64,000 bases of DNA from assembly GCF_009834805.1 (NCBI RefSeq), contig NZ_WVHO01000011.1, positions 1 to 64,000 of the forward strand, in the 5' to 3' direction. Shown here piece after piece: positions 3,220 through 32,953 of this stretch. The stretch comes from Saccharibacter sp. 17.LH.SD (GTDB taxonomy: Bacteria > Pseudomonadota > Alphaproteobacteria > Acetobacterales > Acetobacteraceae). The stretch's first letter is position 1; every line of letters starts with the position of its first letter. The translations under genes were made by a program, and so were the position numbers. The notes below the pieces were generated by a model. That model was given only the letters and a program-made list of their open reading frames with translations, did no database searches and was not told where the DNA came from.

Positions 3220-3258
3220 AACGTGTCTCTCCTTCTTCTTGCAGCCTTCTGGCTATGT

Positions 3259-5727: not shown

Positions 5728-5728
5728 A

Positions 5729-6799: not shown

Positions 6800-6818
6800 A
6801 CGCTTATCTTCCACCACC

Positions 6819-6858: not shown

Positions 6859-6866
6859 AGTCATAG

Positions 6867-6896
6867 GCCTTTCTATACAGTTAATTATAGAAAGGC
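6867..6896 (-). other. Hairpin just downstream of rplT
   Basis: A perfect 11-bp inverted repeat (GCCTTTCTATA / TATAGAAAGGC) with an 8-base loop lies 28 bp after the rplT stop and just before the terminator-like stem. It lacks a T-run, so it is more likely an mRNA 3'-end stabiliser or an upstream element of the pheST attenuator than a terminator itself. Confidence 0.55.
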
Positions 6897-6923
6897 AGCC
6901 AGATACCAGCTGTAAAATTTCTC

Positions 6924-7277
6924 TTACAGGGCCGCCTGGGCTTTACGTACGATCTCAGCAAAAGCAGCTGCATCATCATAAGCGATAGCAGCAAGCACTT
7001 TACGATCGATTTCAATACCAGCCTTATTGAGCCCGTTAATGAAGCGGCTATAGGTCAGGCCATGTTCACGCACAGCGGCACTGATACGTTGAATCCACAA
7101 AGAGCGAAATTCGCGCTTCTTGTTGCGACGATCGCGATAAGCGTAACGTAACGCCTTTTCAACGCGCTCTAACGCAATACGGTAATTTGTGGAAGAACGC
7201 CCACGATAGCCCTTAGCGAGCTCGAGAACTTTCTTATGACGGGCGTGGGTTGTTGTACCCCGTTTAACACGTGCCAT
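6924..7277 (-). CDS. rplT: 50S ribosomal protein L20
   Basis: L20 binds 23S rRNA early in 50S assembly. The 117-residue product has the family start [16 protein letters not shown], the basic helix containing GYRGR and [12 protein letters not shown], and the C-terminal globular part with [16 protein letters not shown]. Length is exactly typical. It follows rpmI by 14 bp. In many bacteria L20 represses the rpmI-rplT mRNA through its leader; whether that happens here cannot be read from the sequence. Confidence 0.98.
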
Positions 7278-7291
7278 AGTTTCTTAACTCC

Positions 7292-7495
7292 TTATGACAG
7301 CCCGTAGGGTGCCCACTGCTTGACGGTACGCGCATCCATGTCCGTCATTGTCTGAGGACCACGGTTGCTGCGTTTCATCTTTTGAGGGCGATTAATCAGG
7401 CCATGGCGCTTGTTACCCGGACCACACGTCACCTTACCGGTCGCGGTGATTTTAAACCGCTTTTTGACCGAAGACTTCGTCTTCATCTTAGGCAT
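7292..7495 (-). CDS. rpmI: 50S ribosomal protein L35
   Basis: A 67-residue basic protein starting [15 protein letters not shown] with [11 protein letters not shown] in the middle, the L35 hallmarks. The ATG at 7495 has GAGGAG 6 bases upstream, so the longer in-frame extension to 7546 is rejected. It forms an rpmI-rplT pair; infC, which often precedes this pair in other bacteria, is not adjacent (gcd lies divergently upstream). Confidence 0.97.
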
Positions 7496-7829
7496 TTTGA
7501 TCTCCTCTATACAAGTAGGCTCCCCAGCAGAACCGAGCAACCCCACGGCCGGGCATGCCTTACTAGAGCCCGGGCGCGTGAATTAGTGGCGTGCTTATAG
7601 GGGGTTTCCCTAACAATCTCAAGGACGAATCATCGCCTCACGCCATCATTCCTTAAAAAATCCCTTTGACCCCCACAATCCCTAAATTTCGCGTCATTTT
7701 TATGACATAGATCAAAATTGGGACCTATCATAACTTGACCCCATGCCCTATCTCTGTGCTTTAAACAAAGGTGAACCCGTTTTAATCTTTTTTAGTTACG
7801 CGCTTTTTAGTCGTAGGTTGAGGTTTCTC
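7496..7829. other. Divergent promoter region between rpmI and gcd
   Basis: The 334-bp gap holds the rpmI promoter and leader on the minus strand and the gcd upstream region on the plus strand. Near 7702-7715 the plus strand has ATAGATCAA inside a TTTTATGACATAGATCAAAATT-like context, a perfect FNR/CRP-type right half-site with a poor left half. A possible gcd -35 (TTGACC) follows at about 7735 without a convincing -10. No other gene was seen. Confidence 0.45.
7594..7622 (-). promoter_or_regulatory. Sigma-70 promoter for rpmI-rplT
   Basis: Minus strand: -35 TTGAGA (7622-7617), 17-bp spacer, -10 TATAAG (7599-7594), very close to the sigma-70 consensus. Transcription would start near 7587 and give a leader of about 90 bases before rpmI. 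Confidence 0.65.
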
Positions 7830-10277: not shown

Positions 10278-10306
10278 GAACTTCATACTGTTGATGTATC
10301 GGACGA

Positions 10307-10337
10307 GGGGAGGAGCTTAGTGCTCCTCCCCTTTTTT
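10307..10337 (+). terminator. gcd terminator
   Basis: Perfect 10-bp stem GGGGAGGAGC/GCTCCTCCCC with a 5-base loop and six following T residues, 30 bp after the gcd stop. Confidence 0.9.
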
Positions 10338-10458
10338 GATCGTTAACAATATATGACAGAGGCTTAACTATTATTTGCCTCTTACATAGTTTAGAGAAGA
10401 AAACATCTGCTCCAGAGGCAGAATGAAAGAAGATCATACCTCTCGGAAGGAATTGAGA

Positions 10459-10755
10459 ATGATGTTACGCCGCTTCGCTTTAGCCGCTCTTGCTGTTAGC
10501 ACCCTGGCAGGGCAAGCAGCTCTTGCACAAGGCCATGCCCATCCTTGCCGTAACGAAAAAGGCCAATTCGCAAAATGCGAGAAGGACCACAAACCTAAGC
10601 CTTGCCGTAACGAAAAAGGTCAGTTCGCGAAATGCGATAAAAAAGACGGCATGAAGGCAATGAAAGACATGAAATCTGATATGAAGTCAGACATGCCATT
10701 AAAGCCTGATATGCCTGATGCAAAAATGCCTGCAGAGAACCCAGCTGCCAAGTAA
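10459..10755 (+). CDS. Small secreted protein with duplicated Cys motif
   Basis: A 99-residue product starting MMLRRFALAALAV; AAGGA sits 7 bases before the ATG at 10459, favouring this start over 10423. Residues 1-24 form a clear Sec signal peptide ending AALAQG. The mature part holds two copies of PCRNEKGQFAKC separated by a Lys/Asp/His linker, giving two Cys pairs, followed by a Met/Lys/Asp-rich tail (KDMKSDMKSDMP). I do not recognise a named family, although short secreted proteins with a CRN-G-F-KC pattern are familiar from acetic acid bacteria. Possible metal- or redox-active periplasmic protein; function unknown. It has its own position between two terminators. Confidence 0.75.
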   Translation: MMLRRFALAALAVSTLAGQAALAQGHAHPCRNEKGQFAKCEKDHKPKPCRNEKGQFAKCDKKDGMKAMKDMKSDMKSDMPLKPDMPDAKMPAENPAAK

Positions 10756-10830
10756 CAAACAAAGCGTTAACGCGCCTTAATCAAACAAGAAGAAGGAAGC
10801 TCGTTATTATTGATGCTTCCTCCCCAACAG

Positions 10831-10868
10831 AAAAAGCCCTCGCCTTTCCAATGGGCGAGGGCTTTTTT
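10831..10868. terminator. Bidirectional terminator between small secreted protein and sufE
   Basis: GCCCTCGCC pairs with GGCGAGGGC around a short loop; the stem is flanked by five A on the left and six T on the right, so it can terminate transcripts from both converging genes. Confidence 0.85.
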
Positions 10869-10898
10869 GTAAGAAATTTTACATTACTGGAACAGCGA

Positions 10899-11348
10899 TT
10901 ATGCCGTTGCTGCTCTCTTTCTAATGGCTTGAGCCATCGCTTCGACACCGTTACCCCGATTTGTCGAGAGCGCCTGCACAAGGCCCAGATCATGCAAGAA
11001 AGAGGACTCGGTATCCACAATTTCCTCACGGCTACGCCCAGAATAGACCCTAAGCAACAATGCCACGAGACCTTGAACAATCGCCGCGTCAGAAGCTCCC
11101 GAGAAAAACAGCTTTCCATCCTTCTCCGTTGCCTCTAGCCACACCTGACTTTGGCATCCTGGAACGCGATGAGTATCGTCTTGCCATTGAGACGGAAAGG
11201 CCGGAATCTTCCGGCCTAACTCGATGATATATTGATAGCGTGCCATCCAGTCATCAAAAAGCGCTAACTCATCGCCTATATTCTCAATCGCTTCCGATGC
11301 ACGCCCCTCCTCTGGTATGACAAAAGGCGACCCAACATTATCAGACAT
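10899..11348 (-). CDS. sufE: Cysteine desulfuration protein SufE
   Basis: SufE accepts persulfide sulfur from a cysteine desulfurase for Fe-S cluster assembly. The 149-residue protein has the acceptor Cys65 in the conserved HRVPGCQSQVW context, followed by FSGASDAAIVQGLVALLL and the SRGNGV-like segment (STNRGNGVEAM) near the C-terminus. No suf operon partner is next to it; it stands alone between hslU and a terminator, so its desulfurase must be encoded elsewhere. Confidence 0.93.
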   Translation of the reverse strand: MSDNVGSPFVIPEEGRASEAIENIGDELALFDDWMARYQYIIELGRKIPAFPSQWQDDTHRVPGCQSQVWLEATEKDGKLFFSGASDAAIVQGLVALLLRVYSGRSREEIVDTESSFLHDLGLVQALSTNRGNGVEAMAQAIRKRAATA

Positions 11349-11402
11349 TTCAAACGACCCCTTATCACTACCATATTGGTCAAAACTCAGACACTTAGTG
11401 CA

Positions 11403-12728
11403 TCAGAGAATAAAACGACTCAAGTCTCCCTTATGGGCTAATGGCGCCACCTTTTCATGAACATCCTCAGCAGTAATGCGAATAACTTCCCCAGAACGCT
11501 CAGACGCCGTAAAAGAAACTTCCTCAAGTAAACGTTCGATAACAGTCGCCAAACGACGCGCACCAATATTCTCAACACGCTCATTAATCTCCGCACCTAA
11601 TTCAGCCAAAGCATCAATAGCCGCTTCATCAAACTCTAACAACACGCCTTCTGTTGCCATCAACGCAATATATTGCTTGATCAATGAATGCTCAGGCTCA
11701 AGCAGAATGCGGCGCAAATCATCACGCGTTAGACCGGACAGCTCTACCCGAATGGGGAGACGCCCTTGGAGCTCAGGCAGTAAGTCAGACGGTTTCGCTA
11801 AGTGGAAAGCTCCCGAAGCAATAAACAAAATATGGTCCGTTTTTACCGCCCCATATCGTGTATTAACCGTCGTCCCCTCAATAAGCGGCAACATATCACG
11901 CTGAACACCCTCACGTGAAATATCTCCACCGCGCCCCCCTGGCTCCGATCTCGCGCAAACTTTGTCGATTTCGTCCAGGAAAACGATACCGTGCTGCTCC
12001 GTATAGCGCACAGCTTCTCGCGCCAAAGCGTCTTCATCCAACAATTGGTCCGCTTCTTCACGAATCAAATGCTCACGCGCATGGGCAATGGTCATTTTCT
12101 TCCGGGAAGGTTCGCGTCCCATCGCTCCACGCATGATCTCTCCCAGATTAATCACCTGCCCAGGAAGAATTGGTGGAAATTCGCCGCTACTACCTGCCCC
12201 AGATGGGGATGACGCATCAGGCATCACCTCAATCTCAATTTCTTTATTTTCTAAAGCACCATCACGCAGCAATTTACGGAAACGTGACCGCTCATCCGCT
12301 GTTGCTTCTTTACCAACCAAAGAATCTAACAACCGCTCTTCTGCAGCCTCCTCTGCTTGAGGTTTAAATTCTTTACGTTTTTGATCACGCAGCATCGTCC
12401 GCGCAGCATCAACAAGATCTCGAATGATGCTATCAACGTCTCGGCCTACATAGCCAACTTCCGTGAATTTTGTTGCTTCAACCTTTAAAAAAGGTGCATT
12501 GGCCAGACGTGCTAAACGCCGCGCTATTTCCGTCTTACCGCACCCCGTTGGGCCAATCATTAAAATATTTTTGGGGACAACTTCTTCACGCAGCCCTTCA
12601 GGCAACTGGGCTCGCCGCCAACGGTTCCTCAGCGCGATCGCCACAGCCCGCTTTGCGTCATTCTGCCCGACAATAAAACGATCCAGCTCGCTCACAATCT
12701 GCCGGGGCGCAAATTCAACAGCACTCAT
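11403..12728 (-). CDS. hslU: ATP-dependent protease ATPase subunit HslU
   Basis: AAA+ unfoldase that feeds proteins to HslV. The 441 residues include the HslU start signature ([21 protein letters not shown]), Walker [10 protein letters not shown] near residue 60, the inserted I-domain (about 110-245), Walker B IVFLDEID, sensor region [22 protein letters not shown], and the C-terminal SRFIL that docks in HslV. Position 5 of the Walker A loop is Cys where Val is usual. Its ATG overlaps the hslV stop by 4 bp (ATGA). Confidence 0.97.
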
Positions 12729-19202: not shown

Positions 19203-20189
19203 ATGTTGCAGGATACTGCGGCCCTTCCTTCTCGCGATGATCTCTATCGTCCTGTTAAATCTCTCATGGCACGGGAAGATTGGGATGCTCTTTTTGCGGA
19301 TGACATTGCCGCTATCATGGAGCTGAAACGTCAGCGCGATGCCGTAATTCTTGCTCATAATTACCAAACACCCGAAATTTTTCATTGCGTTGCAGATATC
19401 CGTGGCGACAGTCTCGCCCTCGCACGGGCCGCTCAAGACATTAAGCAAAAAGTCGTCATTATGGCGGGTGTACATTTCATGGCAGAAACCGTGAAAATGC
19501 TTAATCCGGAGAAAACTGTTCTCATCCCTGATGATCAAGCAGGCTGCTCTCTTGCAGAAGGGATCACCGCTGAAAATGTACGGACGCTAAAAGCGCAACA
19601 TCCCGGCGTCCCTGTCGTGACCTACGTCAATAGCTCTGCTGCGGTAAAAGCGGAGACTGACATATGCTGCACCTCCGGAAACGCACGCCGTGTGGTTGAA
19701 AGCCTCGGGGTTCCAGAAGTGATCATGATCCCCGATGAATTTTTGGCACGTAATATTGAAAACGAAACGGGCATTAAAATGCATACCTGGTCAGCACGCT
19801 GTGAGGTGCATGAGCTCTTTACCCCTCAAGAAATTCGCCAATACAGACGGTTACAGGGACCACTCAGCGTCATCGCTCACCCTGAATGCTCCCCCGATGT
19901 CGTCGCCGCGGCGGACCACGCCGGTTCAACAGCCAGCATGATCAATTACATTGAGGACAATAAACCTGAGAAAGTTATGCTCATTACAGAATGTTCCATG
20001 AGCGACAATCTTTCCGCCATGTATCCTGAGACGCATTTTGTTCGTCCCTGCAACCTTTGCCCGCATATGAAACGAATCACATTAAAGAATATTCGCCAGG
20101 CACTCGAAACGATGAGTACGGAAGTTCTCATCCCTGATGCACTACAAGCACCAGCTCGCCTCGCTGTGGAGCGTATGCTGGCAATTTAA
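19203..20189 (+). CDS. nadA: Quinolinate synthase
   Basis: Condenses iminoaspartate with dihydroxyacetone phosphate to quinolinate; a 4Fe-4S enzyme. The 328-residue product has VILAHNYQTPEI, VMAGVHFMAETVK, the cluster Cys contexts DQAGCSLAEG, DICCTSGNA and CNLCPHMKRI, and HPECSPDV. AAGGA lies 9 bases before the ATG. First gene of nadA-nadB-nadC. Confidence 0.97.
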   Translation: MLQDTAALPSRDDLYRPVKSLMAREDWDALFADDIAAIMELKRQRDAVILAHNYQTPEIFHCVADIRGDSLALARAAQDIKQKVVIMAGVHFMAETVKMLNPEKTVLIPDDQAGCSLAEGITAENVRTLKAQHPGVPVVTYVNSSAAVKAETDICCTSGNARRVVESLGVPEVIMIPDEFLARNIENETGIKMHTWSARCEVHELFTPQEIRQYRRLQGPLSVIAHPECSPDVVAAADHAGSTASMINYIEDNKPEKVMLITECSMSDNLSAMYPETHFVRPCNLCPHMKRITLKNIRQALETMSTEVLIPDALQAPARLAVERMLAI

Positions 20190-20252
20190 CGCATTCTGCT
20201 GGGAGAAAACATCTTCTTCCACAATCTCTTTCCCTCTCACCTAGGCACCTCC

Positions 20253-21734
20253 ATGACTGATTCTCTTCTTTCTCGTTATGCTGGATGGCCTATTATCATC
20301 GGTTCTGGGTTGGGTGGTTTATCTGTAGCCCTTCACCTCAATCGCCCCTGCCTCCTCATTGCGCCTTCTCCAAGTCCACACGAAAATCGCTCAACAGCAC
20401 TTGCACAAGGCGGTATGGCTGCCGCCATTTCTCCTGATGACAGCCCTGAATCTCACGCAAACGACACGATTCAGGCTGGTGCAGGACTATGCGATGAGTC
20501 GATTGTACGAGCCATTACCCAAGCAGGGCCACATGCTGTTGAAACACTGCTAAAATGGGATGTTCCACTTGCACGTGATCCCAAAACAGGTTCGTTAGCC
20601 TTACATCTTGAAGCCGCCCACAGTCACCCGCGTGTTGTCTATGCAGGCGGGGATCAGAGCGGCGCTTTTATTACACGTGCACTCTCACATAGAGTTGAAC
20701 AACAGTCTGATATTCACAAGCTGTCTGGCCATCATCTTGTAAGTTTCCACGTAGAAGACGGGCTCCTTCGTGGTGTCTGGACCAGTGCAGGCTATATCCC
20801 AACATCATGCTGCGTTCTGGCGACAGGTAGTTGTGGTGGCCTATATCGTCATACGACCATTCCTCTTACGAATAGAGGCGTTGGGATTGCGTTAGCGGCA
20901 CATGCTGGAGCACGACTAGCCGACATGGAATTTACTCAGTTCCATCCGACCGCGCTCAAAGGACCAGAAACACACAATCGTCTTTCTTTGATTAGCGAAG
21001 CTGTTCGCGGTGCAGGCGCAACCCTTGTCCTCGACACGCATGAACGCTTCACTGAGGAACTCGCCCCTCGGGACATTGTTAGCCGTGCAATCGCTGCCAA
21101 ACTTAAAGAAGGCCATAATGTTTTTTTGGATGGCCGCGCATTAAAAAATGGCACATTCAGCGAGCGCTTCCCCAGCATTACAGCAGCATGTCACATAATC
21201 GGAATAGACCCTGATACACAGCTCATCCCTGTACGGCCTGCGATGCATTATCATATGGGCGGAATCGCTGTAGACCAGAACGGTCGAAGCTCAATACCTG
21301 GTCTGTGGGCCTGCGGAGAAGTGGCCTGCACCGGCCTTCATGGGGCTAACCGCCTTGCAAGCAACTCCCTTCTTGAAGCACTGATCTGCGGAGAATGGGT
21401 TGCTAAGGATATTGCCGCTTACTCTCCGCCGCCTTCTGTATGCACTCTCCCCAAACATCGACCAACGTTCCTTTCCACAGAATGGACATTACAAGAGGAC
21501 ATGGAGAAGGGAGCTGGTATTCTTCGCAACAAAGACGGCCTCACCCATTTATTGGAGAAGACACTTCCGCTTGCTTCCCATAATGCCTGCGCGCTTACGA
21601 CCTCTTTTATCGCATGGGCCGCTCTCAAGCGTCACGAATCCCGCGGCGGGCATTATCGCGATGATGCCCCGCAATCCGACACACCCCAACGCTCTAGCTT
21701 GAGCTTGGTCGATCTTCCACTCAACATAAAGTAA
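20253..21734 (+). CDS. nadB: L-aspartate oxidase
   Basis: FAD enzyme that makes iminoaspartate for NadA. The 493 residues show the FAD Rossmann motif IIGSGLGGLSVAL, STALAQGGMAAAI, the catalytic region EFTQFHPTAL, PRDIVSRAI, HYHMGGIAVD and LHGANRLASNSLLEAL. The C-terminal helical domain is shorter than in E. coli (540 residues). It starts 63 bp after nadA and ends 4 bp before nadC. Confidence 0.96.
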   Translation: MTDSLLSRYAGWPIIIGSGLGGLSVALHLNRPCLLIAPSPSPHENRSTALAQGGMAAAISPDDSPESHANDTIQAGAGLCDESIVRAITQAGPHAVETLLKWDVPLARDPKTGSLALHLEAAHSHPRVVYAGGDQSGAFITRALSHRVEQQSDIHKLSGHHLVSFHVEDGLLRGVWTSAGYIPTSCCVLATGSCGGLYRHTTIPLTNRGVGIALAAHAGARLADMEFTQFHPTALKGPETHNRLSLISEAVRGAGATLVLDTHERFTEELAPRDIVSRAIAAKLKEGHNVFLDGRALKNGTFSERFPSITAACHIIGIDPDTQLIPVRPAMHYHMGGIAVDQNGRSSIPGLWACGEVACTGLHGANRLASNSLLEALICGEWVAKDIAAYSPPPSVCTLPKHRPTFLSTEWTLQEDMEKGAGILRNKDGLTHLLEKTLPLASHNACALTTSFIAWAALKRHESRGGHYRDDAPQSDTPQRSSLSLVDLPLNIK

Positions 21735-21738
21735 CCTT

Positions 21739-22602
21739 ATGCACTCTACTCTTTTCCTACCCGATCTTCTTTGGGAACCCGTCGTGACCACGGCCCTTCG
21801 TGAAGATTTTGGCACAGGAGGGGATGTGACAACACAAGCTCTCCTCGGACAGGCAACCACACTGCAAGCCTCTTTCCGTGCTCGACAGCACGGTGTTGTC
21901 GCGGGCCTTCCTGGTGCTCGCCTGACATTTGAAAAGCTTGACCCATCTCTTCATTTCCACGCCTATAAGCACGATGGTGATACCATCGCCCCGGGTGATA
22001 TCTTAGCAACCGTTAAGGGAGATGCTGCTGCGCTTCTTGGCGGTGAGCGCGTGGCTCTAAATATTCTATCTCATCTCAGCGGTATTGCGACAACAACAGC
22101 CACAATCGTAAACCGTGTTAAGGGAACAGGTGTACAAATCTGCTGCACGCGAAAAACTCTTCCTGGCTTGCGCGCTCTCCAGAAATACGCTGTCCGCGCA
22201 GGAGGCGGAAGCAACCACCGCCACCGTTTAGATGACGCCATCATGCTCAAAGATAATCACATCGCGCTTCTGGGAGGCAATTTGACGGATGCCCTCAAAG
22301 CAGCACGCCAGAGAGCCGGCCATTTGATGAAAATTGAACTCGAGGTAGATTCTCTTGAACAGCTGGAAACCGCTCTGTCTGCGGGAGGTGCTGATGCCTA
22401 TCTTCTCGACAATATGGACCCAGAAACGCTACGCCGTGCCGTCAAAATGATCAACGGACGCGCCATTACCGAAGCTTCTGGAGGGATCACCCCTGATAAT
22501 GCCCGTTCCAAAGCTGAAACAGGCGTCGATGTCCTCTCCCTTGGCTGGCTGACCCACAGCGTGACAGCCCTTGATATCGGGCTTGATATCATCGCGGGGT
22601 GA
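21739..22602 (+). CDS. nadC: Nicotinate-nucleotide pyrophosphorylase (quinolinate phosphoribosyltransferase)
   Basis: Forms nicotinate mononucleotide from quinolinate and PRPP, completing the local de novo NAD block. The 287-residue protein contains LREDFGTGGDVTT, ALNILSHLSGIAT, CTRKTLPGLRALQKYAV, GGGSNHRHRLDDAIMLKDNHI, and EASGGITPDN. Length and motifs are standard. It converges with gloB, leaving 2 bp between the stops. Confidence 0.97.
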   Translation: MHSTLFLPDLLWEPVVTTALREDFGTGGDVTTQALLGQATTLQASFRARQHGVVAGLPGARLTFEKLDPSLHFHAYKHDGDTIAPGDILATVKGDAAALLGGERVALNILSHLSGIATTTATIVNRVKGTGVQICCTRKTLPGLRALQKYAVRAGGGSNHRHRLDDAIMLKDNHIALLGGNLTDALKAARQRAGHLMKIELEVDSLEQLETALSAGGADAYLLDNMDPETLRRAVKMINGRAITEASGGITPDNARSKAETGVDVLSLGWLTHSVTALDIGLDIIAG

Positions 22603-24102: not shown

Positions 24103-24981
24103 ATGATTAATCCTACTTCTTCTAAACCGCTTATGAAACGCCGGCGACGACGACAGCGTGTCCGCGGGCTGTCATTCAACCGGCTCGTCCCCAATATTCT
24201 AACCATGATCGGCCTTTGTGCCGGACTCAATGCAATTAAATTTGCTCTCGTGGGACGTTTTTCACATGCTGCTATTGCCCTGCTTGTCGCAGCATGTATG
24301 GACGGCCTTGATGGTCGCATCGCACGAATGCTGCATGGAACATCACGCTTTGGCGCCGAATTTGATAGTTTATCCGACTTCGTTTGTTTTGGCGTAGCCC
24401 CGCCTTTTGTCTTAATGATGTGGGCATTACCTCCAACCACAAGTCGTTTTTCGTTCGTGCCATTCATTATGTTCACGGTTTGCATGGCACTACGCCTTGC
24501 CCGCTTTAATGCCACCCTCGACGACGAGAGCAAGCCAGAATACGCAGCCAATTTCTTTAGTGGTGTGCCCGCCCCAGCAGGAGCTGGTTTAGCACTTTTC
24601 CCTGTCTTCGTAGGGTTAGAGGCTGAACGGAATGGCCTCCATGATATCAGCCGGTTAGCGCACACGTCATGGCTATCAGCCTTATGCCTCATCGGTACGG
24701 CCTTATTGTTAGTATCGACACTTCCAATCTGGTCTTTTAAGAATTTTAAGGTTCCCTCACGCTACATTTTGCCACTGCTTCTCGGCACCGGGCTTTATGT
24801 CGCTGTATTAGTCGCTGAACCGTGGGGCGCACTTGCTGCAGCAGGCTTATTTTATCTTATCATGATCCCGCTTTCACGCCGCTCTTATTGGCGATTAAGA
24901 CGTGAAGCTGAAGCGCCTCGTGAAGAGATCAATGAAGAAAATAAAGCAGATCAGCCTTCCGCTAAAGCGAGCAACGCCTGA
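24103..24981 (+). CDS. pssA: CDP-diacylglycerol--serine O-phosphatidyltransferase
   Basis: Integral membrane enzyme of the CDP-alcohol phosphatidyltransferase family. The signature D-G-x2-D-G-x-A-R-x8-G-x3-D-x3-D fits ACMDGLDGRIARMLHG followed by EFDSLSDFVCFG. The N-terminus is strongly basic (KRRRRRQRVRG) and there are about seven hydrophobic segments. I chose the ATG at 24103 (AAGG 8 bases upstream) over an upstream TTG inside psd. The last 31 bp overlap the convergent hydrogenase-like small subunit gene. Confidence 0.95.
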   Translation: MINPTSSKPLMKRRRRRQRVRGLSFNRLVPNILTMIGLCAGLNAIKFALVGRFSHAAIALLVAACMDGLDGRIARMLHGTSRFGAEFDSLSDFVCFGVAPPFVLMMWALPPTTSRFSFVPFIMFTVCMALRLARFNATLDDESKPEYAANFFSGVPAPAGAGLALFPVFVGLEAERNGLHDISRLAHTSWLSALCLIGTALLLVSTLPIWSFKNFKVPSRYILPLLLGTGLYVAVLVAEPWGALAAAGLFYLIMIPLSRRSYWRLRREAEAPREEINEENKADQPSAKASNA

Positions 24982-25424
24982 AAAATTTCATGTGGAGAGG
25001 GTGGGCACCCAGGTATAGAACGATATACCTGGATAAGCCCTTCAACCCCTCCCAACGTTGCGTAATCAGCCTTAAAAGGCCCACCATTCTGGGCGCAGGC
25101 CCCAATGGCGACCAAAGACTTCCGTTGTGGCATTGCATTCCATGCTTCAGCCAGTGCTCCGATACGACTGCGCGTTACCGCCCCTGTGACGAGCAACCAA
25201 TCCGCCTCTTCCGGCGCTTTGACAATTTGGAAGCCACTGCCTTCTAATGGGATTGTGCTCCCATTTAGGGCAGAAATCTCCATAGCACATCCCTCACAGC
25301 TCCCCGTCTCTATCGGATAAAGACGAATGATCGAACCGGCTCGATTTTTTACAGATGCAGGACGCCATCGATACGCATCCATTAAAGCCAACAGTAATGT
25401 TGATGGGCCAGAACGCACCGTCAC
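24951..25424 (-). CDS. Hydrogenase-4/NuoB-like Fe-S small subunit
   Basis: A 157-residue homologue of HyfI/HycG and complex I NuoB. Four cysteines are placed to bind one 4Fe-4S cluster: Cys43 and Cys46 (GSCEGCAMEI), Cys110 (IGACAQNGG) and Cys140 (IPGCPPSP). The CEGC spacing is hydrogenase-like rather than the CC pair of NuoB. GTG start overlapping the large-subunit stop (GTGA). It is the last gene of the run from pepA. The cluster seems intact although the partner large subunit lacks NiFe ligands. Gene symbol withheld because the reaction is unknown; closest name is hyfI. Confidence 0.85.
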   Translation of the reverse strand: MTVRSGPSTLLLALMDAYRWRPASVKNRAGSIIRLYPIETGSCEGCAMEISALNGSTIPLEGSGFQIVKAPEEADWLLVTGAVTRSRIGALAEAWNAMPQRKSLVAIGACAQNGGPFKADYATLGGVEGLIQVYRSIPGCPPSPHEIFQALLALAEG

Positions 25425-26863
25425 AAGACAACTCCTGCAGGAGAAATGCCTAACGAGGCTAACGCCAATGGGATATCATCAGGTTGATGCCCTCGCATAA
25501 TACCCTCCAACACACACAATACTGGCTGCGTAGGGTCTCTTACTTGTAGATTTTCTATTTTCCCATGTAAGAGTTTTACCCAATACCAAATGTCTCCGCG
25601 GGCACCTTCGGCTACGCCCAATCCTTCCCCTGTCATAGGAATGGTCTGAGCCTCATCCTCTATCCCTAAGCTCGCTATGATACGTTGGATAAGATATAGA
25701 GAATCCCGTATCTCCAACAAACGCTGTCCATTTCGCGCAAGAGCACACCCTTCATGACGGCCTGATGCACGCAAAGCATCAAGACGCATACCAACATCCA
25801 TTGAGCGCATATCAATATAGCGTCCGCTTGCACGACCCGTAACCCCACCGATAGCATATCCCCATACATGCTCAGGTGACAGAATGGCGATGCCTTCCAT
25901 CCGAGACGAGAAAAGACGGTTCAAACCTGTTAAACGTGGAAGTAACGGCTGCATAGTCTCCGTCACAGCCTGTGCAAATGGAACTATTTCTGAAACCTTA
26001 CTTCCTTCATCCCAAAAACGGACCGTATCCGTTAAGCGACGTGAAACACCATATTGACTGCATAACTGCGCCAAGACTTCACGTGCATGGTCACAATGCG
26101 TTGCCAAAAGGTCAGCCTTTACACAACGGGCAACCAAACCGATATCAAACAAATGAAGGCTAATGCGTTCAACTTCCAAAAGAATAAAACGTATATCACG
26201 CTCCTGCGGCAAGGGCACCTTCGCTTGCGCTTGTTCAACGGCCCGCACAAATGCCAAAGGATGTGCAACAAACCCCCCTGCACTGACACGGCTAATCAGT
26301 GGCAACGCTTCTTGAGGAGACAATCCCTTCACTTGAGATAGAATACCCCGATGCCCACTCGCAATGTGTACGTCCAGCTTTGTTATAAGCCCCTTTGACA
26401 CGTTATACGTCAGGTCAAGCAAGCCGGGCACAGCCAGGCACGCAGCTTTCAGTTCGTACCCTTCTTCGCGTTCGTCATGGACTTTCCCTTGAACAGGAAT
26501 CGGCTCACGCGCCATGGGCCATGTTAGAGTCCAACTGCCATTATCCAGAGCAGAGCGATCATCCAACGCGAAAAGAGGCTCAACACCCCACAAATCACGC
26601 GCCATACGTTCTCCCCACTGAGCGGCTAGGAAACGCATTGAAGGGGCATAATAGCGGCGCTTTTCCACTGGGACGCTCAACAAAAAAGGGAGTTCATCTT
26701 CCAATAAAAGCATTGTCGCATAGTCTTCATCAGCCCATGAGGCGATGAGCGACACCGTTTTATCAGCATGTTGCAATACCCCCTGCCATATCTGATTATC
26801 CACCCGATAATGCGACAATCCAACACGTTCACCATGCTGCATGATGGCAGATAATAAACTCAT
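25421..26863 (-). CDS. Hydrogenase-4 large subunit-like (NuoCD-like), NiFe-site cysteines missing
   Basis: A 480-residue homologue of HyfG/HycE. Residues ~40-115 form a NuoC-like domain (PSMRFLAAQWGERMARDLWG), followed by a NuoD-like core (VHIASGHRGI, ERDIRFILLEVERISLHLFD, GSKVSEIVPFA). The first NiFe motif RVCGIC reads RVSAGG (residues 192-197), and the C-terminal DPCxxC motif reads RDPTQPVL. All four Ni/Fe cysteine ligands are therefore absent, so it cannot be an ordinary NiFe hydrogenase. The ATG at 26863 overlaps the preceding stop by 4 bp. This fits the Ehr (energy-converting hydrogenase-related) group; closest name is hyfG. Confidence 0.85.
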   Translation of the reverse strand: MSLLSAIMQHGERVGLSHYRVDNQIWQGVLQHADKTVSLIASWADEDYATMLLLEDELPFLLSVPVEKRRYYAPSMRFLAAQWGERMARDLWGVEPLFALDDRSALDNGSWTLTWPMAREPIPVQGKVHDEREEGYELKAACLAVPGLLDLTYNVSKGLITKLDVHIASGHRGILSQVKGLSPQEALPLISRVSAGGFVAHPLAFVRAVEQAQAKVPLPQERDIRFILLEVERISLHLFDIGLVARCVKADLLATHCDHAREVLAQLCSQYGVSRRLTDTVRFWDEGSKVSEIVPFAQAVTETMQPLLPRLTGLNRLFSSRMEGIAILSPEHVWGYAIGGVTGRASGRYIDMRSMDVGMRLDALRASGRHEGCALARNGQRLLEIRDSLYLIQRIIASLGIEDEAQTIPMTGEGLGVAEGARGDIWYWVKLLHGKIENLQVRDPTQPVLCVLEGIMRGHQPDDIPLALASLGISPAGVVL

Positions 26864-28035
26864 GGATGCCACTCTGGCAGAATATTTTGGCCGGACAAAC
26901 AAACCCCCACGACAGCCACAACCATCAGTAAAGCAACAAGCACTTGCGTATACCTACCTTGCTTTCCCCGGTACAGCGCACTCCCCTCACGCATTGGGAC
27001 AAGCCTCAAACCCCTTATCCCTAAGGCAATGCAAAGCAACAAAATCCCCAAGACAACAATGGAAAGCACATGCCCTAATTGTAACAACACAACCCCAATA
27101 ACTGGCAATACAGCCCTCTCAGGCAACGTATTATATTCATCATTTTTGAGAGAAACACCTAAGCGAAGACTTGTACTCAGCAACGCCGCAGCTTGTAGAA
27201 GTAATAAAATAATCTCTTGTTCTGTTGCCGCCGCTAAAGCGCCTAACCCTGTTAAGCAAGGCAAAAGAGGAAATACATGCCCTCGACCAACCATCGTTAC
27301 AAACAAAGCCAACAACCCAGCAACCATCATTAAATGACGAGCCAATGGATAAAAGGCCAAATGAAGCATTAATGTTAGAGCCGCAAAACGTAAGCCAACA
27401 TCAAGCAAATCAAGTTCTGGGGCGGCCGTCGCAGCACTCCCCAAGCCTGCCATCATACCAACGCCAACAACAGAAAGAATAATACCTAATGTCTGAGCTG
27501 ATTCTGGCGTCACAACCGCAGCCCCACCATGCAATAAGGTGGCCCCTAACCCGCCAAGAACGACCCCACAAAGGCGAAGACGCGCCATGACCCAAGCCGG
27601 CATTGCTCGCCTCGTTGCGCGACCATCCCACCATGCAAGAAGTACAGACCCTGCCCCAACAGCAATTGTTACTGCCAAAGTTGAGCGAAAAAGAAACCCC
27701 ATAAAAGAGCAACCAACCACCAAAAAAGGTAGCCGCTCTCCTATTCCCCCGCCTAAACGCCCAATGCTAGAATCATGAAAAAAAAGCTGCATAAACAGTA
27801 GAAATGGAACGAAGGATTCTAACCCAAGGGCAACCATTTCGGCTGGTTCCAACCCTTGAGCACACCCAATAAGCGCTAAAAAACTTAACCCAAGCCCTAT
27901 ATATGAAAATTCCTGAGCGTGCCCCACGCGTCCCGATATCCACAACAACCATGCGACTAAAAAAGGCCAGCAAAAGATTGCAAACGAAATAGGCGATGCA
28001 AATAAACCCGGTGGGATCATAGGATGAGGTGTCAT
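26860..28035 (-). CDS. Hydrogenase-4 component F-like membrane subunit (NuoM/N-like, divergent)
   Basis: A 391-residue protein that is almost entirely hydrophobic, with roughly eleven membrane segments. It is placed by gene order (E-F-G-I as in hyf operons) and by weak resemblance to HyfF: a LESFVPFLLFMQLFF helix, and LRFAALTLMLHLAF near the middle. The motif PFHxWLxxAH, typical of antiporter-like subunits, is not visible. The ATG at 28035 overlaps the upstream stop (ATGA), which rejects a longer start at 28149. It is shorter than HyfF (about 500-530). Function inferred. Confidence 0.65.
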   Translation of the reverse strand: MTPHPMIPPGLFASPISFAIFCWPFLVAWLLWISGRVGHAQEFSYIGLGLSFLALIGCAQGLEPAEMVALGLESFVPFLLFMQLFFHDSSIGRLGGGIGERLPFLVVGCSFMGFLFRSTLAVTIAVGAGSVLLAWWDGRATRRAMPAWVMARLRLCGVVLGGLGATLLHGGAAVVTPESAQTLGIILSVVGVGMMAGLGSAATAAPELDLLDVGLRFAALTLMLHLAFYPLARHLMMVAGLLALFVTMVGRGHVFPLLPCLTGLGALAAATEQEIILLLLQAAALLSTSLRLGVSLKNDEYNTLPERAVLPVIGVVLLQLGHVLSIVVLGILLLCIALGIRGLRLVPMREGSALYRGKQGRYTQVLVALLMVVAVVGVCLSGQNILPEWHP

Positions 28036-28568
28036 TGATCCTCCACACGCCGCCACGCTAACCGTGGCAACAATGTAGCTCCTAACACCGCAAGAACCCC
28101 CCACAGAGCCACAGCCATCACAAGAAGCCCCCATGACGACAGCACACACGCCATGACCAACAAGCCATCAACCGCCATTAACAACCCACAAAACTGCGAC
28201 AATGGAACGCCATAGGCTGCGGAACATAAACCTGCCAAAACAAGCCCCACACCCAATGTTGGCACTAATCCAAGGCTTGCACCTGATAACGCCAACACAA
28301 GCTGCATGAGCAATATCGCAAGTACTGGGGCCGTTGCTTTCATCATCGAAAGGCGCTCAGCATGAGAGGAAACAGCAAACCCTCTCAGACCGAGCCATGC
28401 GAGCATGTTAAAGACTAACAAAGCCACAACAGCGACGACAATAAGAACGCCCCCACCCAACGAAGCCGATGTAAAGGCACAAATAACCCCGTAGACAGGG
28501 AGCCAACGCCCATCGCGCCCTAATGTTAATAAAACCATGACGAGCGCGAGTGAAAAACCAACGGTCAT
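28032..28568 (-). CDS. Hydrogenase-4 component E-like membrane subunit (NuoK-like)
   Basis: A 178-residue protein with five or six hydrophobic segments. Its QFCGLLMAVDGLLVMACVL segment parallels the NuoK/HyfE helix with an acidic residue before Asn-Gly (here D-G rather than E-N-G). HyfE of E. coli is about 216 residues. The ATG at 28568 overlaps the upstream stop by 4 bp, and the gene overlaps the next by 4 bp. The single membrane Asp could sit in a proton path (inference). Confidence 0.7.
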   Translation of the reverse strand: MTVGFSLALVMVLLTLGRDGRWLPVYGVICAFTSASLGGGVLIVVAVVALLVFNMLAWLGLRGFAVSSHAERLSMMKATAPVLAILLMQLVLALSGASLGLVPTLGVGLVLAGLCSAAYGVPLSQFCGLLMAVDGLLVMACVLSSWGLLVMAVALWGVLAVLGATLLPRLAWRRVEDQ

Positions 28569-29437
28569 GTCGCGAACCTTCCTGCGAGAGCGATCAAAAA
28601 GCCCAACCCGATCAATAAAGCAATCAGTCGCACATGCCGCTCTACACCGATTAAACGTAACAGAACCGTTACAAACAAAGCACAGGCTAGCCGAATGACC
28701 AACTCCACGATGCTCGCCCATCCATCGCTATCGCTGAGAACGGGGAACAGCAAATCCGCAACGAGCAATAACCATCCCATTTGCAAGAAACGTACCAAAA
28801 CACGCCGGCAATCCCGCCCATCACGCGTAGGAACATAACGGTAGCTCATCATAAGTTCTGTTAATTCAGACACTGTTGGCAACGGAGACGACACAGCCAG
28901 CGCCAACGCACAGCAAATGCTTGCACCAGCCAATCCTGATCCTGGAAGCAAACGCAGCACAGTATGGATACCCGAAAGCCCATATACCCCTGGTGCCGCT
29001 AGGACAAGAAGGGCCTCTGCCATACAGAGTGGGACGATAGCTCCAACATAGCGTCCTAAAAAAAACGCTGGCATTAAGCAAAAGCCACCCCAAAGAAGTA
29101 TTCCTCCAACCAGAAGAATATCTCCCAACGGGCCAGGAAAGAGCATCATATCCCCTAAGCCTGGAATAACAACACAGCCAGGGAGCGCAATAAAAACAAT
29201 CATCGCCAGTGAGAAAGACACTCCTTCTGCTGGCGGAAGGCCCTGCCTCATGACATGACGAAAAAATGATATGAACTGTCGATAAATCTGTCCAAGACGA
29301 GGAACAGTCCGCCCTGAGAGCAGGACAGGAGACACCTCAAGAGCCCATGTAAAGAACGGTGTAAGAAGACATAAAATGACGAGCTGGCAAAAACTCACCG
29401 CTCCTTCTTGAAGAACTTCTATCACCTGATGGCTCAT
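28565..29437 (-). CDS. Hydrogenase-4 component C/NuoH-like membrane subunit
   Basis: A 290-residue membrane protein with about eight hydrophobic segments. GRTVPRLGQIYRQFISFFRH (about residues 42-61) corresponds to the GRxGPxxxQPYRDLxKLxxK loop of HyfC/HycD and complex I NuoH. A central acidic loop (TVSELTELMMSYRYVPTRDG) matches the cytoplasmic loop that meets the Fe-S subunit in NuoH. Starts at an ATGA overlap with the B-like gene. Confidence 0.8.
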   Translation of the reverse strand: MSHQVIEVLQEGAVSFCQLVILCLLTPFFTWALEVSPVLLSGRTVPRLGQIYRQFISFFRHVMRQGLPPAEGVSFSLAMIVFIALPGCVVIPGLGDMMLFPGPLGDILLVGGILLWGGFCLMPAFFLGRYVGAIVPLCMAEALLVLAAPGVYGLSGIHTVLRLLPGSGLAGASICCALALAVSSPLPTVSELTELMMSYRYVPTRDGRDCRRVLVRFLQMGWLLLVADLLFPVLSDSDGWASIVELVIRLACALFVTVLLRLIGVERHVRLIALLIGLGFLIALAGRFAT

Positions 29438-30768
29438 GCCGTTAGCCCTATGATAGCGAGAACACTGCCAAGGAATAGGAGCCAGAACGCTAATCCGACT
29501 TCAGAAAGTGGCGCATTAAAACGACGAACATCCCCCGCCAGTACGTCCCAATAACCGCGCCCTCCTACCATCCAGCGGCGCCATTGCCACATGAGATGAG
29601 GCCTCTCTCCCGCAAACCATAGTCCCCAGCTTTGTTTTTCAGACAACGGAACCGAAGCCGCTATGAAAATATCGCCCAACACGCGGCGTGACGATCGCCG
29701 CGTCGACAAAAACCAAAAAAAACACAACAGAACCCACAACACAGGATACGCAACAACAGCACCGTCACCTCCTGGGAAAAACCACAAGATTGCCCCAAGA
29801 GATTGCCTATCAAACGTAGCTCCAAATTGTTTCAACACAGCCCAGCTTGCTAAAAATACCAGAGACGGCAAGACCACAGCACTCACGATAAAAATTTTGC
29901 TTTTCACAGGTTCTCGTAATGCTGGAATCAGCCGAACACCTTCCACCACAGAAAGACCAACCAAGATCAACGCGAGTCCAACCCCTGCAATCGTCCAGCC
30001 TGGTGTTCCTGTTGCCATACCCAAAGCAGCATGCATCCCAAGCCACATCACTAAAAAGCCTGGAAGAGGTGGAATAGGTAAACTTAAAGACCGCCATGAA
30101 GGCCGCAACGTACCAATCACCTGCAATGTAAGATCAAGCACCAAAGCCCGAACCGCCGCTTGGGCGCTTTCGTCCAATCCTTCCTGTTGTGCTGCTTCAA
30201 TAATGCCAAGGAGTAAGAGCGGCCTCAGCGTTAAAATAACACTTAAGAGTGCCCCCCAACCTTTAATATAGGCCCATATCCCCAGAAGAAGCATAACGCT
30301 TCCTGAACCGAGTATCCATGTTACCGGGTGGCTCGGCATAACATGTGACGCAAGGCCAAGTGCTAAAATGACACCGACACATCGCTGATAAGGTGATATT
30401 TCCCTCCCCTGCCCTGGCCACAACAAAACCGGCAGAATAAGAACCGTACCCCCGGTTGTTGGAAAAAGCCCGTATAGTACAAGAGCAGGAACGCCCCAAA
30501 AAGGCAAAAAGACATCCCCCGCCTTGCCGCCCAAAAGCACCATCATCACGGCAAGCGACAAAGCAATGACACCCGTCTGCCCAACGATGAGCGCTACCAA
30601 AGCCACAAGAAGGGCTATGATACGATGCCATTCCTCATAACGAAGGGAAAAAGCACGCCCTTCACCCCACAACACTCTTTTTACGCCTAGCGGTTCGTAG
30701 CACTCACCCCACAAAAGGCACAGCAACAACCCCGCTAAAAATAGGGTTAAAGGATCACCATGAAACAC
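29434..30768 (-). CDS. Hydrogenase-4 component B-like membrane subunit (NuoL/M-like, divergent)
   Basis: A 444-residue protein, largely hydrophobic, with about ten membrane segments. LSLPIPPLPGFLVMWL (near the middle) matches the conserved L-x2-P-P-L-x-G-F-x2-W of NuoM/HyfB-type subunits. The PFHxWLxxAH/APTPVSAL block that should precede it is not recognisable, so proton-pumping residues may be lost. I chose GTG at 30768, 8 bp after the holC stop with AGGA upstream; a TTG start at 30855 would overlap holC by 79 bp. Confidence 0.65.
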   Translation of the reverse strand: MFHGDPLTLFLAGLLLCLLWGECYEPLGVKRVLWGEGRAFSLRYEEWHRIIALLVALVALIVGQTGVIALSLAVMMVLLGGKAGDVFLPFWGVPALVLYGLFPTTGGTVLILPVLLWPGQGREISPYQRCVGVILALGLASHVMPSHPVTWILGSGSVMLLLGIWAYIKGWGALLSVILTLRPLLLLGIIEAAQQEGLDESAQAAVRALVLDLTLQVIGTLRPSWRSLSLPIPPLPGFLVMWLGMHAALGMATGTPGWTIAGVGLALILVGLSVVEGVRLIPALREPVKSKIFIVSAVVLPSLVFLASWAVLKQFGATFDRQSLGAILWFFPGGDGAVVAYPVLWVLLCFFWFLSTRRSSRRVLGDIFIAASVPLSEKQSWGLWFAGERPHLMWQWRRWMVGGRGYWDVLAGDVRRFNAPLSEVGLAFWLLFLGSVLAIIGLTA

Positions 30769-30776
30769 GCTGCTGC

Positions 30777-31283
30777 TTATCCTGCCCGTCGCCAACCACG
30801 GGCTTCTTGTTTCCAGTAGGTCATTAAACAACCAGCCTTTTTCATAGCCCGCCAACGCACCCGCGCCTGCTCCACCATGTGTTCATCACGACCATCAAAC
30901 AAATCAAAAACACGCACGAAAGAGGTCATGACATCATCTCCCGCACCATTAATGCGGAATAAAAATTGCGCCTGATTAGGCACGTCACTCTCGGCGGTTA
31001 ACCAAATAGGCTGTCTCTCGGCTTTCCCTGTGGCGGCACATCCATGCGGCAACCAAATGGGAGAACGGCACGCCCACAGAACTTTATCAAGATGCGCTAC
31101 CATAGCGTCATCCGAGCAACGGACAACCGCTCTTTCTCGCGCATCGAGTGTTTTTCCGAGCAAAGCTGGAAGAGCTTCGTCCAAAGAAGTGCGTGTCAGA
31201 TGGTAGAACCCCACCTGAACACGCTTTTCTGCCAGAGAATCCTCGGCACCATCATCCCCTCTGTCGTGAGTCTCTGCCGCCAT
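30777..31283 (-). CDS. holC: DNA polymerase III chi subunit
   Basis: Clamp-loader accessory protein that contacts SSB. The 168-residue product has the family start VQVGFYHLTRTSLDEALPALLGK and the ALVRC-like, HLDKVLW and PHG segments, then VRVFDLFDGRDE near the C-terminus. It follows pepA by 24 bp, the standard pepA-holC pair. It is directly followed by the hydrogenase-like genes. Confidence 0.9.
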   Translation of the reverse strand: MAAETHDRGDDGAEDSLAEKRVQVGFYHLTRTSLDEALPALLGKTLDARERAVVRCSDDAMVAHLDKVLWACRSPIWLPHGCAATGKAERQPIWLTAESDVPNQAQFLFRINGAGDDVMTSFVRVFDLFDGRDEHMVEQARVRWRAMKKAGCLMTYWKQEARGWRRAG

Positions 31284-31307: not shown

Positions 31308-32816
31308 TCAGTTTTGTGTCTCGTGATCCTGCACAAAGCGATCAAGAAGCTGTACACCAAACCCTGTTGCGCCCCGACGCGCTAGAGCTGACTCTTTATC
31401 AAGCCACGCTGTTCCGGCGATATCCAAATGAGCCCATGGCGTATCACCGACAAAACGCTTCAAGAATTCGGCCGCTAGAATAGCACTCCCCGGGCGCCCG
31501 CCAATGTTCTTAACATCAGCAATATCAGAATCAAGCTGGCGGTTATAAGCAGACCCCATTGGCATGCGCCACAATTTCTCACCCACTTCTTTACCAGCAT
31601 CCTCAAGGGCTTGAGCTAACCGATCATGATTACTAAACAACCCCGCATGCTCCGCACCCAGCGCAACAACGATAGCACCGGTTAGAGTGGCCAAATTAAT
31701 CATAAAAGACGGCGCATAAGTCTTCCGCGTATAAGCCAGCAAATCAGCCAAAACCAGACGCCCTTCCGCATCCGTGTTCAATACTTCAATAGTCTGACCA
31801 CTATAGCTCTTGACGATATCCCCAGGACGTTGGGCCTTACCGGAGACCATATTCTCCACCAGCCCGACAACCCCCACAGCATTCACTTCTGCTTTGCGAC
31901 GCGCCAAGGTGCTCATAACGCCGACAACAGTCGCAGCACCACCCATATCATTTTTCATCTCATCCATTCCAGCGGCGGGCTTAATCGAAATACCACCGGA
32001 ATCAAACGTGACCCCCTTACCAACAAAGGCAAGTGGCGCCTCTTGCGCAGAGGCAGCTCCTTGGTAACGCATAATGACTGTATAAGGCTCGCGCTCACTT
32101 CCTTGAGCCACACCGAGCAGAGCACCAAACCCCAATGCCTCCATTTGGGTTTGATCCAAAACCTCTATCTCCAGACCAAGGTCACGCAGCGCTTCAATAC
32201 GGTTTTTAAAACTCTCTGGATAAAGGACGTTAGACGGTTCATTAACGAGATCACGCGTTAACAGGACACCATCTCCCACGGCCTCCAATTCAGCCCAGCG
32301 TGACAAGGCTGTTTCAACCTCTTCTTCTGTCGACAGCGCGATGCTCAGAGTATCGAATACGCCCGGTTTTTGCTTTTCTGATAAATATTTCGTGAAATGA
32401 TAGCTTGTTAACCGTGCGCCAAGGGCCACATCCGCGGCATGCGCTGCCATTCCCTCGGGGAGAACAATCACGCCTTGAGTGCCTGCAAGAGATGATTTCT
32501 CTAAAGCACGCAGCGCAGCTCCTCCTACCTCTTCCATGAGGTATGATTCGCTCAGATTAAATTCATTCGTGGTTTTGCAGCCGATCAACTGCACCTGAGC
32601 AATTTGTTCAACAGGAGCAAGGACACTCAGATTCTGTCCATAACTTCCTTTGAAACCTCGCAACGTCACGGCACGCAAAAGTGCGCCGCCTGTTATCTCA
32701 TCAAGGCGCTTGAACGCCGCCATTTTTGTCGCATCCTCGCCAAAGCAAAGGAGCGCTACCGACAATGGCGTATTGACGTCAGACGGAGAAAAAACATCAA
32801 AGGAAAGCTGGAGCAT
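31308..32816 (-). CDS. pepA: Leucyl aminopeptidase
   Basis: Dizinc M17 cytosolic aminopeptidase. 502 residues from ATG 32816 (MLQLSFDVFSPSD). The C-terminal catalytic domain shows GKGVTFDSGGISIKP, MKNDMGGAATV, the signature NTDAEGRLVLADLL and LATLTGAIVVALG. The N-terminal macro-like domain is normal. A longer start at 32855 lacks support. Heads the pepA-holC-hydrogenase-like run. Confidence 0.96.
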   Translation of the reverse strand: MLQLSFDVFSPSDVNTPLSVALLCFGEDATKMAAFKRLDEITGGALLRAVTLRGFKGSYGQNLSVLAPVEQIAQVQLIGCKTTNEFNLSESYLMEEVGGAALRALEKSSLAGTQGVIVLPEGMAAHAADVALGARLTSYHFTKYLSEKQKPGVFDTLSIALSTEEEVETALSRWAELEAVGDGVLLTRDLVNEPSNVLYPESFKNRIEALRDLGLEIEVLDQTQMEALGFGALLGVAQGSEREPYTVIMRYQGAASAQEAPLAFVGKGVTFDSGGISIKPAAGMDEMKNDMGGAATVVGVMSTLARRKAEVNAVGVVGLVENMVSGKAQRPGDIVKSYSGQTIEVLNTDAEGRLVLADLLAYTRKTYAPSFMINLATLTGAIVVALGAEHAGLFSNHDRLAQALEDAGKEVGEKLWRMPMGSAYNRQLDSDIADVKNIGGRPGSAILAAEFLKRFVGDTPWAHLDIAGTAWLDKESALARRGATGFGVQLLDRFVQDHETQN

Positions 32817-32953
32817 GAAATATCCGGGATAAATAAAGAAAACCCTCAGACACACATAATCACCGTGTATCTACCTCTATCTTATCGGCAGAGGAGGGCT
32901 TTCAGACAAGAGGGCAAGTGACGAATGTTGTGCAATCAGTTAAAGTTAACGCC

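Follow-up and report, generated by a model that had tools for sequence, protein, structure and literature searches.

What is left for a relative of the energy-converting hydrogenases to do once it lacks the metal site for hydrogen and apparently also the residues for pumping protons? The question is raised by six open reading frames (ORFs) on the minus strand at 24951-30768 of the window, by which we mean the whole stretch analysed here, the first 64,000 nucleotides of contig NZ_WVHO01000011.1 (C11) from Saccharibacter sp. 17.LH.SD. The ORFs follow the hyf order B-C-E-F-G-I, and adjacent ORFs share 4-bp ATGA or GTGA stop-start overlaps, five in all, as an earlier sequence-only reading of this DNA had described. 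We tentatively propose, giving it somewhat less than an even chance, that these genes encode a non-hydrogenase, probably non-pumping electron-transfer complex with one iron-sulfur cluster, descended from an energy-converting-hydrogenase-related (Ehr) complex.

The head of the complex consists of the large subunit G and the small subunit I, and here the earlier claims held throughout. G matched PF00346 (expectation value, E, 2.5e-12) and I matched PF01058 (E 1.1e-23). The nearest Protein Data Bank (PDB) chains by sequence belonged to E. coli formate hydrogenlyase, HycE for G (7z0s_E, E 6e-13) and HycG for I (7z0s_G, E 7e-22); complex I chains ranked lower. From R192 onward G reads RVSAGG where hydrogenases have RVCGIC, and its C-terminus (...LASLGISPAGVVL) contains no DPCxxC, leaving none of the four Ni-Fe ligands. 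The alignment is in register at these positions because L051, a true hydrogenase from genome G031 that was aligned together with G, retains both RVCGIC and DPCYSC. Among 84 Ehr-type large subunits aligned with L051 (three of the rows being gapped at the first two ligand columns), 82 had no cysteine at any of the four ligand columns, two (L048 and L120) had a single one, and none had a pair. Because the relatives agree to this extent, the loss of the ligands is not a sequencing error.

The small subunit I keeps four cysteines (Cys 43, 46, 110 and 140) suited to one 4Fe-4S cluster, and the pattern CxxC...C...CP was present in 65/65 loci with a linked copy. By its sequence, then, the complex has one conserved small subunit of the 4Fe-4S type and no Ni-Fe site. 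In L121, L122, L123 and L124 (genomes G024, G010, G039 and G048) hyfI is unlinked from the operon, at about 5500-6550, with the four cysteines kept as judged by eye. That Asaia-type genomes had lost hyfI, and with it the redox centre, was thus ruled out for these four; the named Asaia loci showed no hyfI in a search limited to their own contig stretches. Ten charged residues of G (H171, R192, E230, E232, R233, R344, R348, D351, R442 and D443) were invariant in 10/10 aligned rows.

The DNA comes from an acetic acid bacterium of the Saccharibacter kind, a close relative of bacteria that live with bees and on flowers, in agreement with the setting supposed earlier, and the named large subunits closest to that of the window were those of Saccharibacter floricola (61%) and Saccharibacter sp. 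EH611 (59%). Its genome (2.10 Mb, 13 contigs, 100% complete) gave a single match to PF00346 and a single match to PF01058, both inside the six-gene cluster, and zero matches to PF00361 (antiporter), PF00146 (NuoH) and PF01512 (NuoF); a complex I hidden elsewhere was ruled out for these five families, and this setting of a genome without complex I was not known to the earlier reading. Zero matches were also obtained genome-wide for PF00384 (molybdopterin oxidoreductase) and PF01924 (HypD), and no Fer4_7 match was found in the window, which bears out, for HypD, molybdopterin oxidoreductases and ferredoxin-like genes, the claim that no ferredoxin-like, formate dehydrogenase or maturation genes lie nearby. 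One small ferredoxin candidate, a frame of 126 amino acids (aa), lies elsewhere in the genome.

The membrane subunits had been named after hyfB, hyfC, hyfE and hyfF. None of B, C, E and F matched a Pfam or NCBIfam family above the curated cut-off, a point that the earlier reading could not have seen. The identification of B, C and F is based on gene order, profile chains and predicted folds, and that of E only on its gene position and on a chain of profiles leading to the genes that occupy the E position in related loci. Iterated profiles connect C, itself without a Pfam match, to HyfC-like proteins that match PF00146; a PHROGs search of C and E returned no match. AlphaFold2 models were built from 36-sequence alignments for each of B (predicted local distance difference test, pLDDT, 81.6; predicted template modelling score, pTM, 0.80) and F (pLDDT 85.7, pTM 0.90). 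In VIA, whose lists were confined to candidates supplied by Foldseek, the top match of B was E. coli HycC (7z0t_C; Z 20.2, root-mean-square deviation 4.0, 328 residues aligned, model 1-376 on chain 70-550) and that of F was E. coli NuoL (7p7l_L; Z 29.5, with 361 residues aligned between model positions 14-391 and chain positions 1-491); 6u8y_H was among the matches of both. In Foldseek itself F reached E 1.4e-4, and B gave a best E of 0.13, with nothing at E 0.001 or better. On these models, B and F are predicted to keep the antiporter fold.

What the predicted fold has lost are residues that would carry protons through it. We compared B and F in alignments of 36 rows each, from which near-identical or broken loci had been omitted. 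Basal Ehr clusters (L050, L042, L041 and L120) kept the Glu of transmembrane helix (TM) 5, the Lys of TM7, the Lys of TM8 and the Glu of TM12 in both antiporter subunits. In the aligned columns of the acetic-acid-bacterium branch, TM7 Lys and TM12 Glu were each gone from 36/36 rows of B and from 34/34 rows of F, and in the B of the window the TM12 motif GFxSEW reads GFLVMW. Over all tree rows, TM12 Glu of B was kept in 5/55, and in F the survivors were TM7 Lys and TM8 Lys in 4/50 each, TM12 Glu in 5/50 and TM5 Glu in 8/50. Parsimony on the large-subunit tree gave one or two changes for each lost residue, and the losses form a nested pattern there. In the alignment of C, the acidic loop (DLAEAEQEL...EYSG) was present in L051, with a related acidic loop in L042, and absent from the 23 other rows, including the window. 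Because no row aligned from this branch has the proton-carrying residues at TM7 and TM12, the ion-linked role once suggested is weakened, and it is for this reason that we regard the complex as probably non-pumping. The cluster had also been called a reduced form, and reduced it is; more exactly, it is chiefly the membrane arm that is reduced, in pump residues and in subunit lengths.

Family matches across 22 chosen genomes agree with this loss. Six genomes, the same ones for PF00361 as for PF00146, had a match above cut-off at the Ehr or hydrogenase locus itself (basal Ehr in G006, G012, G033, G057 and G095; the true hydrogenase in G031); none of the other 16 had one, G003 giving a PF00361 match below threshold. 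Because eleven genomes with an unmatched Ehr locus still hold the NuoH of complex I elsewhere, the pump residues appear, by inference, to have been lost before complex I was.

The complex is not peculiar to the window's genome. With E 1e-30 as the limit, 220/249 sampled Acetobacteraceae genomes, each at least 90% complete, carried a large subunit of the Ehr type, a number counted by eye and bordered by weaker matches that overlap the range of ordinary NuoD; the absence of Ni-Fe ligands was checked in the 84 aligned rows, not in each of the 220 genomes. NuoF was present in 230/249 genomes and absent from 19/249, and the large subunit was kept in 18 of these 19, one of which (G028) is a fragmented assembly where NuoF may simply be missing. 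Because G232 (genus group g55, the same group as G056) has NuoF, not every member of the branch is without complex I, whose presence was scored on the sampled genomes rather than on each named locus. The large-subunit tree was a quick one, with one support value and long-branch warnings, and omitted 15 loci (near-duplicates or fragments). In it the window grouped with S. floricola and Saccharibacter sp. EH611 (97, starred) and then within 15 rows including Bombella and Parasaccharibacter (100, starred); the window complex was nested at starred forks inside the Ehr clade, as descent from basal Ehr complexes would have it. With this nesting and the features of the head, the earlier placement among Ehr complexes was a fair one, and the earlier interpretation as a whole is supported in part.

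Purifying selection acts on each of the six genes in Gluconobacter, which supplies 20 of the named loci (among them Gluconobacter oxydans, L070), the others including Bombella and Asaia. We obtained pairwise Nei-Gojobori estimates from 11 Gluconobacter genomes, using pairs with a synonymous rate (dS) of 0.15 to 1.5. The median ratio of nonsynonymous to synonymous rates (dN/dS) was 0.204 for B, 0.139 for C, 0.050 for E, 0.098 for F, 0.089 for G and 0.129 for I; E was thus the most constrained of the six and B the least. The neighbouring genes of the same set gave 0.064 (pepA), 0.016 (pssA) and 0.036 (psd), and five of the six cluster genes were less constrained than all three of these controls, E being the exception. 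Pseudogene decay was ruled out in Gluconobacter by the range of 0.05-0.20.

How might such a complex work? The six genes would encode a membrane complex derived from an Ehr complex, a redox complex that has probably lost both H2 production and proton pumping in the manner of complex I. We infer electron transfer because the cluster cysteines are kept and the charged residues of G are invariant. A soluble one-electron carrier, for which the genome offers the one ferredoxin candidate, would exchange electrons with the cluster of I at the cavity between G and I, and the membrane arm would anchor this head and probably give access to the quinone pool. The complex could then act as a valve that lets electrons in or balances them without conserving energy, in bacteria whose quinone is fed mostly by periplasmic dehydrogenases; donor, acceptor, direction and quinone contact are guesses. 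A broader statement, to which we commit ourselves more hesitantly still, is that selection has preserved an enzyme of the complex I superfamily, stripped of hydrogenase activity and ion pumping alike, as a membrane complex with one cluster and a redox (or redox-sensing) task, the old pump subunits being reused as its scaffold.

Several observations weigh against this proposal. The TM8 position was gapped in 34/36 rows of B and 13/34 rows of F, and our firmest statements are consequently those on TM7 and TM12. Of these, the missing TM7 Lys of B says little when taken alone, because the true hydrogenase L051 lacks it too. A comparison of the basal with the deranged families by hhalign was not significant (B, E 0.024, probability 2; F, E 0.0046, probability 7.5), so that it is collinearity, the fold and, in B, the PP..GF motif that support the correspondence of residues in B and F. 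The complete genome G108, without NuoF, gave no large-subunit match either, and the complex must therefore be dispensable there. The quinone tyrosine of complex I (Tyr87 of T. thermophilus Nqo4) aligns by eye to Ala195 of G; a quinone site of the complex I type is for that reason not expected. Lastly, new conserved charges, identical in 25/25 rows (R182, D212 and H246 of B; R152, R154 and R216 of F), could carry protons by another route. That ion translocation continues over such a remodelled route strikes us as improbable. The charges do lie in predicted helices, and the most constrained subunit, E, is a small membrane protein; yet C has no acidic loop, TM7 and TM12 are without their Lys and Glu residues, and dN/dS is highest for B.

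The main rival holds that the complex is non-catalytic, a structural or sensory membrane assembly. Its 4Fe-4S cluster would then help the protein to fold, or would sense redox state or oxygen, and quinone would receive no net flow of electrons. We consider this unlikely, but less so than the remodelled ion route. With the Ni-Fe ligands, the complex I quinone tyrosine and the membrane proton-path residues all gone, no known acceptor site would lie beside the cluster, and a neighbourhood comparison found no gene partner linked to the six genes throughout the whole branch. A deranged bc1 and a COX1-like protein in the same family have been argued to be kept probably for structural roles (PMC10715153). 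The four cluster cysteines, however, are kept even in unlinked hyfI, and the invariant charges of G, wherever they lie in the fold, look more like chemistry than scaffolding. Far less probable is a dying relic, an operon heading for loss with no selected function, which the selection test has already largely refuted. Shortened B and F, gapped alignments, functional residues lost stepwise, dN/dS mostly above that of the three housekeeping neighbours and the missing match in G108 would all suit a relic, as would the reading frames broken in one or more cluster genes of three Asaia drafts (L094, platycodi; L096, prunellae; L105, astilbis), through errors or real decay. Being drafts, however, these could contain sequencing errors; frames are open in most of the 48 named loci, relocated hyfI is intact, and the Gluconobacter ratios do not fit a gene without function. 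That an active hydrogenase-4 or an ordinary complex I has been misread through a sequencing error is refuted, and we give it practically no credence, both by the large subunits described above and by a genome without NuoF, NuoH, antiporter or HypD match and without a second NuoD- or NuoB-type match.

Ehr complexes of Margulisbacteria and their kin, comammox Nitrospira and Sulfobacillus are described as having no Ni-Fe motifs, an unknown function and complex I- or antiporter-like neighbours (PMC6349859, PMC10284858, PMC4378227). A proposal published for Ehr complexes leans on a pump-like membrane arm (PMC6349859), and charge translocation coupled to a cytoplasmic redox reaction is suspected in the literature; the aligned residues argue against charge translocation by the window complex. 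Like those complexes, the window cluster has a group 4 hydrogenase-like large subunit without CxxC ligands and complex I- or Hyf-like neighbours. The membrane subunits of published Ehr complexes are held to resemble antiporters or complex I, whereas those of the window are unrecognisable by Pfam profile and have no proton-path residues, and the window's branch includes bacteria without complex I. The cluster is a member of Ehr by its head (no Ni-Fe cysteines, a linked four-Cys small subunit), by the predicted antiporter fold of B and F and by descent, but by sequence it fails the membrane-arm features, in that profile searches put it outside the antiporter and NuoH families PF00361 and PF00146, to which the basal clusters do belong. 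These basal Ehr complexes, found in the same family (G012, G057, G006 and G033) and in another alphaproteobacterial family (G095), have related large and small subunits and a C that matches PF00146; they differ in membrane subunits that match PF00361 and, in the aligned G012, G057 and G095, in retaining the Glu of TM5 and TM12 and the Lys of TM7 and TM8 in both B and F.

E. coli formate hydrogenlyase (Hyc; 7z0s, 7z0t) provides the best PDB sequence match of G and I and, in HycC, the best structural match of B, but the window cluster is without its Ni-Fe site, formate dehydrogenase and ferredoxin-like subunits. The marks of a [NiFe] hydrogenase-4 or formate hydrogenlyase were all absent: the Ni-Fe ligands from the cluster, and HypD and formate dehydrogenase (PF01924, PF00384) from the whole genome. 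Respiratory complex I (Nuo) shares NuoB-, NuoCD- and NuoH-related subunits, and the F model fits NuoL best; it differs in its NADH module (NuoF, PF01512, is absent genome-wide here), in a NuoI-like gene, missing from the cluster, and in the proton-path Lys and Glu residues, whose absence from the window is firm for TM7 and TM12 and less so for TM8. The archaeal Mbs and Mbx complexes (6u8y) are hydrogenase-like complexes without a hydrogenase reaction, as the window complex would be; they differ in being described as ion-translocating, with a ferredoxin-binding subunit. The name Ehr is said to come from Marreiros et al. 2013. In the open-access literature, judged mainly by titles and the starts of abstracts, no paper on the cluster in acetic acid bacteria was recognised. 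In the main text of a survey of Acetobacteraceae respiratory enzymes, where deranged bc1 and complex I are discussed, 'hyf' occurs zero times and 'hydrogenase' once (PMC10715153), and 'hydrogenase' occurs zero times in the main text of a Commensalibacter study (PMC10149009).

Ehr complexes recur in distant phyla with their reaction unknown, and here one bacterial family holds a natural series from forms that look pump-competent to forms that look pump-dead, with the iron-sulfur subunit still in place. Should the pump-dead form be functional, selection must protect some part of Ehr other than pumping, and the search narrows to the G/I head. If the broader statement above is true, acetic acid bacteria without complex I would have an as yet undescribed kind of route for electrons from the cytoplasm to the membrane. 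The complex would also be a further part of the respiratory chain in bacteria that lack complex I. Carriers of the genes include the tractable industrial organism Gluconobacter oxydans and the bee-associated Bombella.

The six genes and their upstream neighbours are listed in Table 1. In the window 8 bp separate the holC stop from the B start, and pssA and psd lie downstream of the cluster in the opposite direction. All four flanking genes (pepA, holC, pssA, psd) were matched in 34/48 named loci, and pepA and holC together in 38/48; some of these loci have one or two additional genes in between. The flanking genes were matched in G042, G015 and G044 as well. The cluster has been inherited in place. 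Junctions in the 48 named relatives overlapped by 4 bp at 160, by 1 bp at 27 and by 8 bp at 10, with 19 non-adjacent; these counts lean towards overlap, since starts were chosen by script as nearest to the preceding stop.

Table 1. Cluster genes and upstream neighbours in the window.
Feature	Position	Strand	Remarks
B, HyfB/HycC-like membrane subunit	29434-30768	-	GTG start, 444 aa; predicted antiporter fold without pump residues
C, HyfC/NuoH-like membrane subunit	28565-29437	-	290 aa; iterated profile chain to PF00146-matching proteins
E, HyfE-position membrane protein	28032-28568	-	178 aa; operon position, 4-bp overlaps, profile chain
F, HyfF/NuoL-like membrane subunit	26860-28035	-	391 aa; predicted antiporter fold without pump residues
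G, large subunit, NuoCD/HycE-like	25421-26863	-	480 aa; PF00346; no Ni-Fe cysteines
I, small subunit, NuoB/HycG-like	24951-25424	-	157 aa; PF01058; four Cys, one 4Fe-4S cluster
holC, upstream neighbour	30777-31283	-	PF04364, E 6.7e-31
pepA, upstream neighbour	31308-32855	-	named by sequence and conserved place, no family search

An aldo/keto reductase gene stands before hyfB in G. oxydans (by sequence), in Neokomagataea L035 and in G024 and G027 (PF00248); none adjoins hyfB in the window or in the two Saccharibacter loci. In L070 (G. oxydans NBRC 14819) two genes lie between holC and hyfB, Rieske-oxygenase-like and aldo/keto-reductase-like (3173-4297 and 4319-5164), named from their sequences only. 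In L034 (G034; 5541-8408) hyfG and hyfI are separated by an inserted gene for a TonB-dependent receptor, and at this point other Bombella loci (L055-L058, L060 and L086) show a gap of roughly 4 kb. Short partial NuoB-like matches at G015:C1:1280632-1280781 and G033:C353:10370-10561 (62- and 82-aa frames) are possibly gene remnants. The metagenome bins behind L100, L104, L107, L110 and L113 are titled Nitrosovibrio or Asaia bogorensis; on the tree their large subunits fall a long way from the Asaia isolates, and the titles look wrong.

L051 (G031:C1:743500-763400, at about 5902-12028) is a true group 4 [NiFe] hydrogenase-like cluster that includes a ferredoxin-like subunit with a Fer4 match, in a 1.9 Mb Acetobacteraceae genome. 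The Acetobacteraceae are a family known for aerobes, and a group 4 hydrogenase is unexpected there. A scan of the window for tRNA genes found none. Near the cluster, at 19203-22602 of the window, are three adjoining nadA-, nadB- and nadC-like genes of NAD synthesis, likewise named from sequence.

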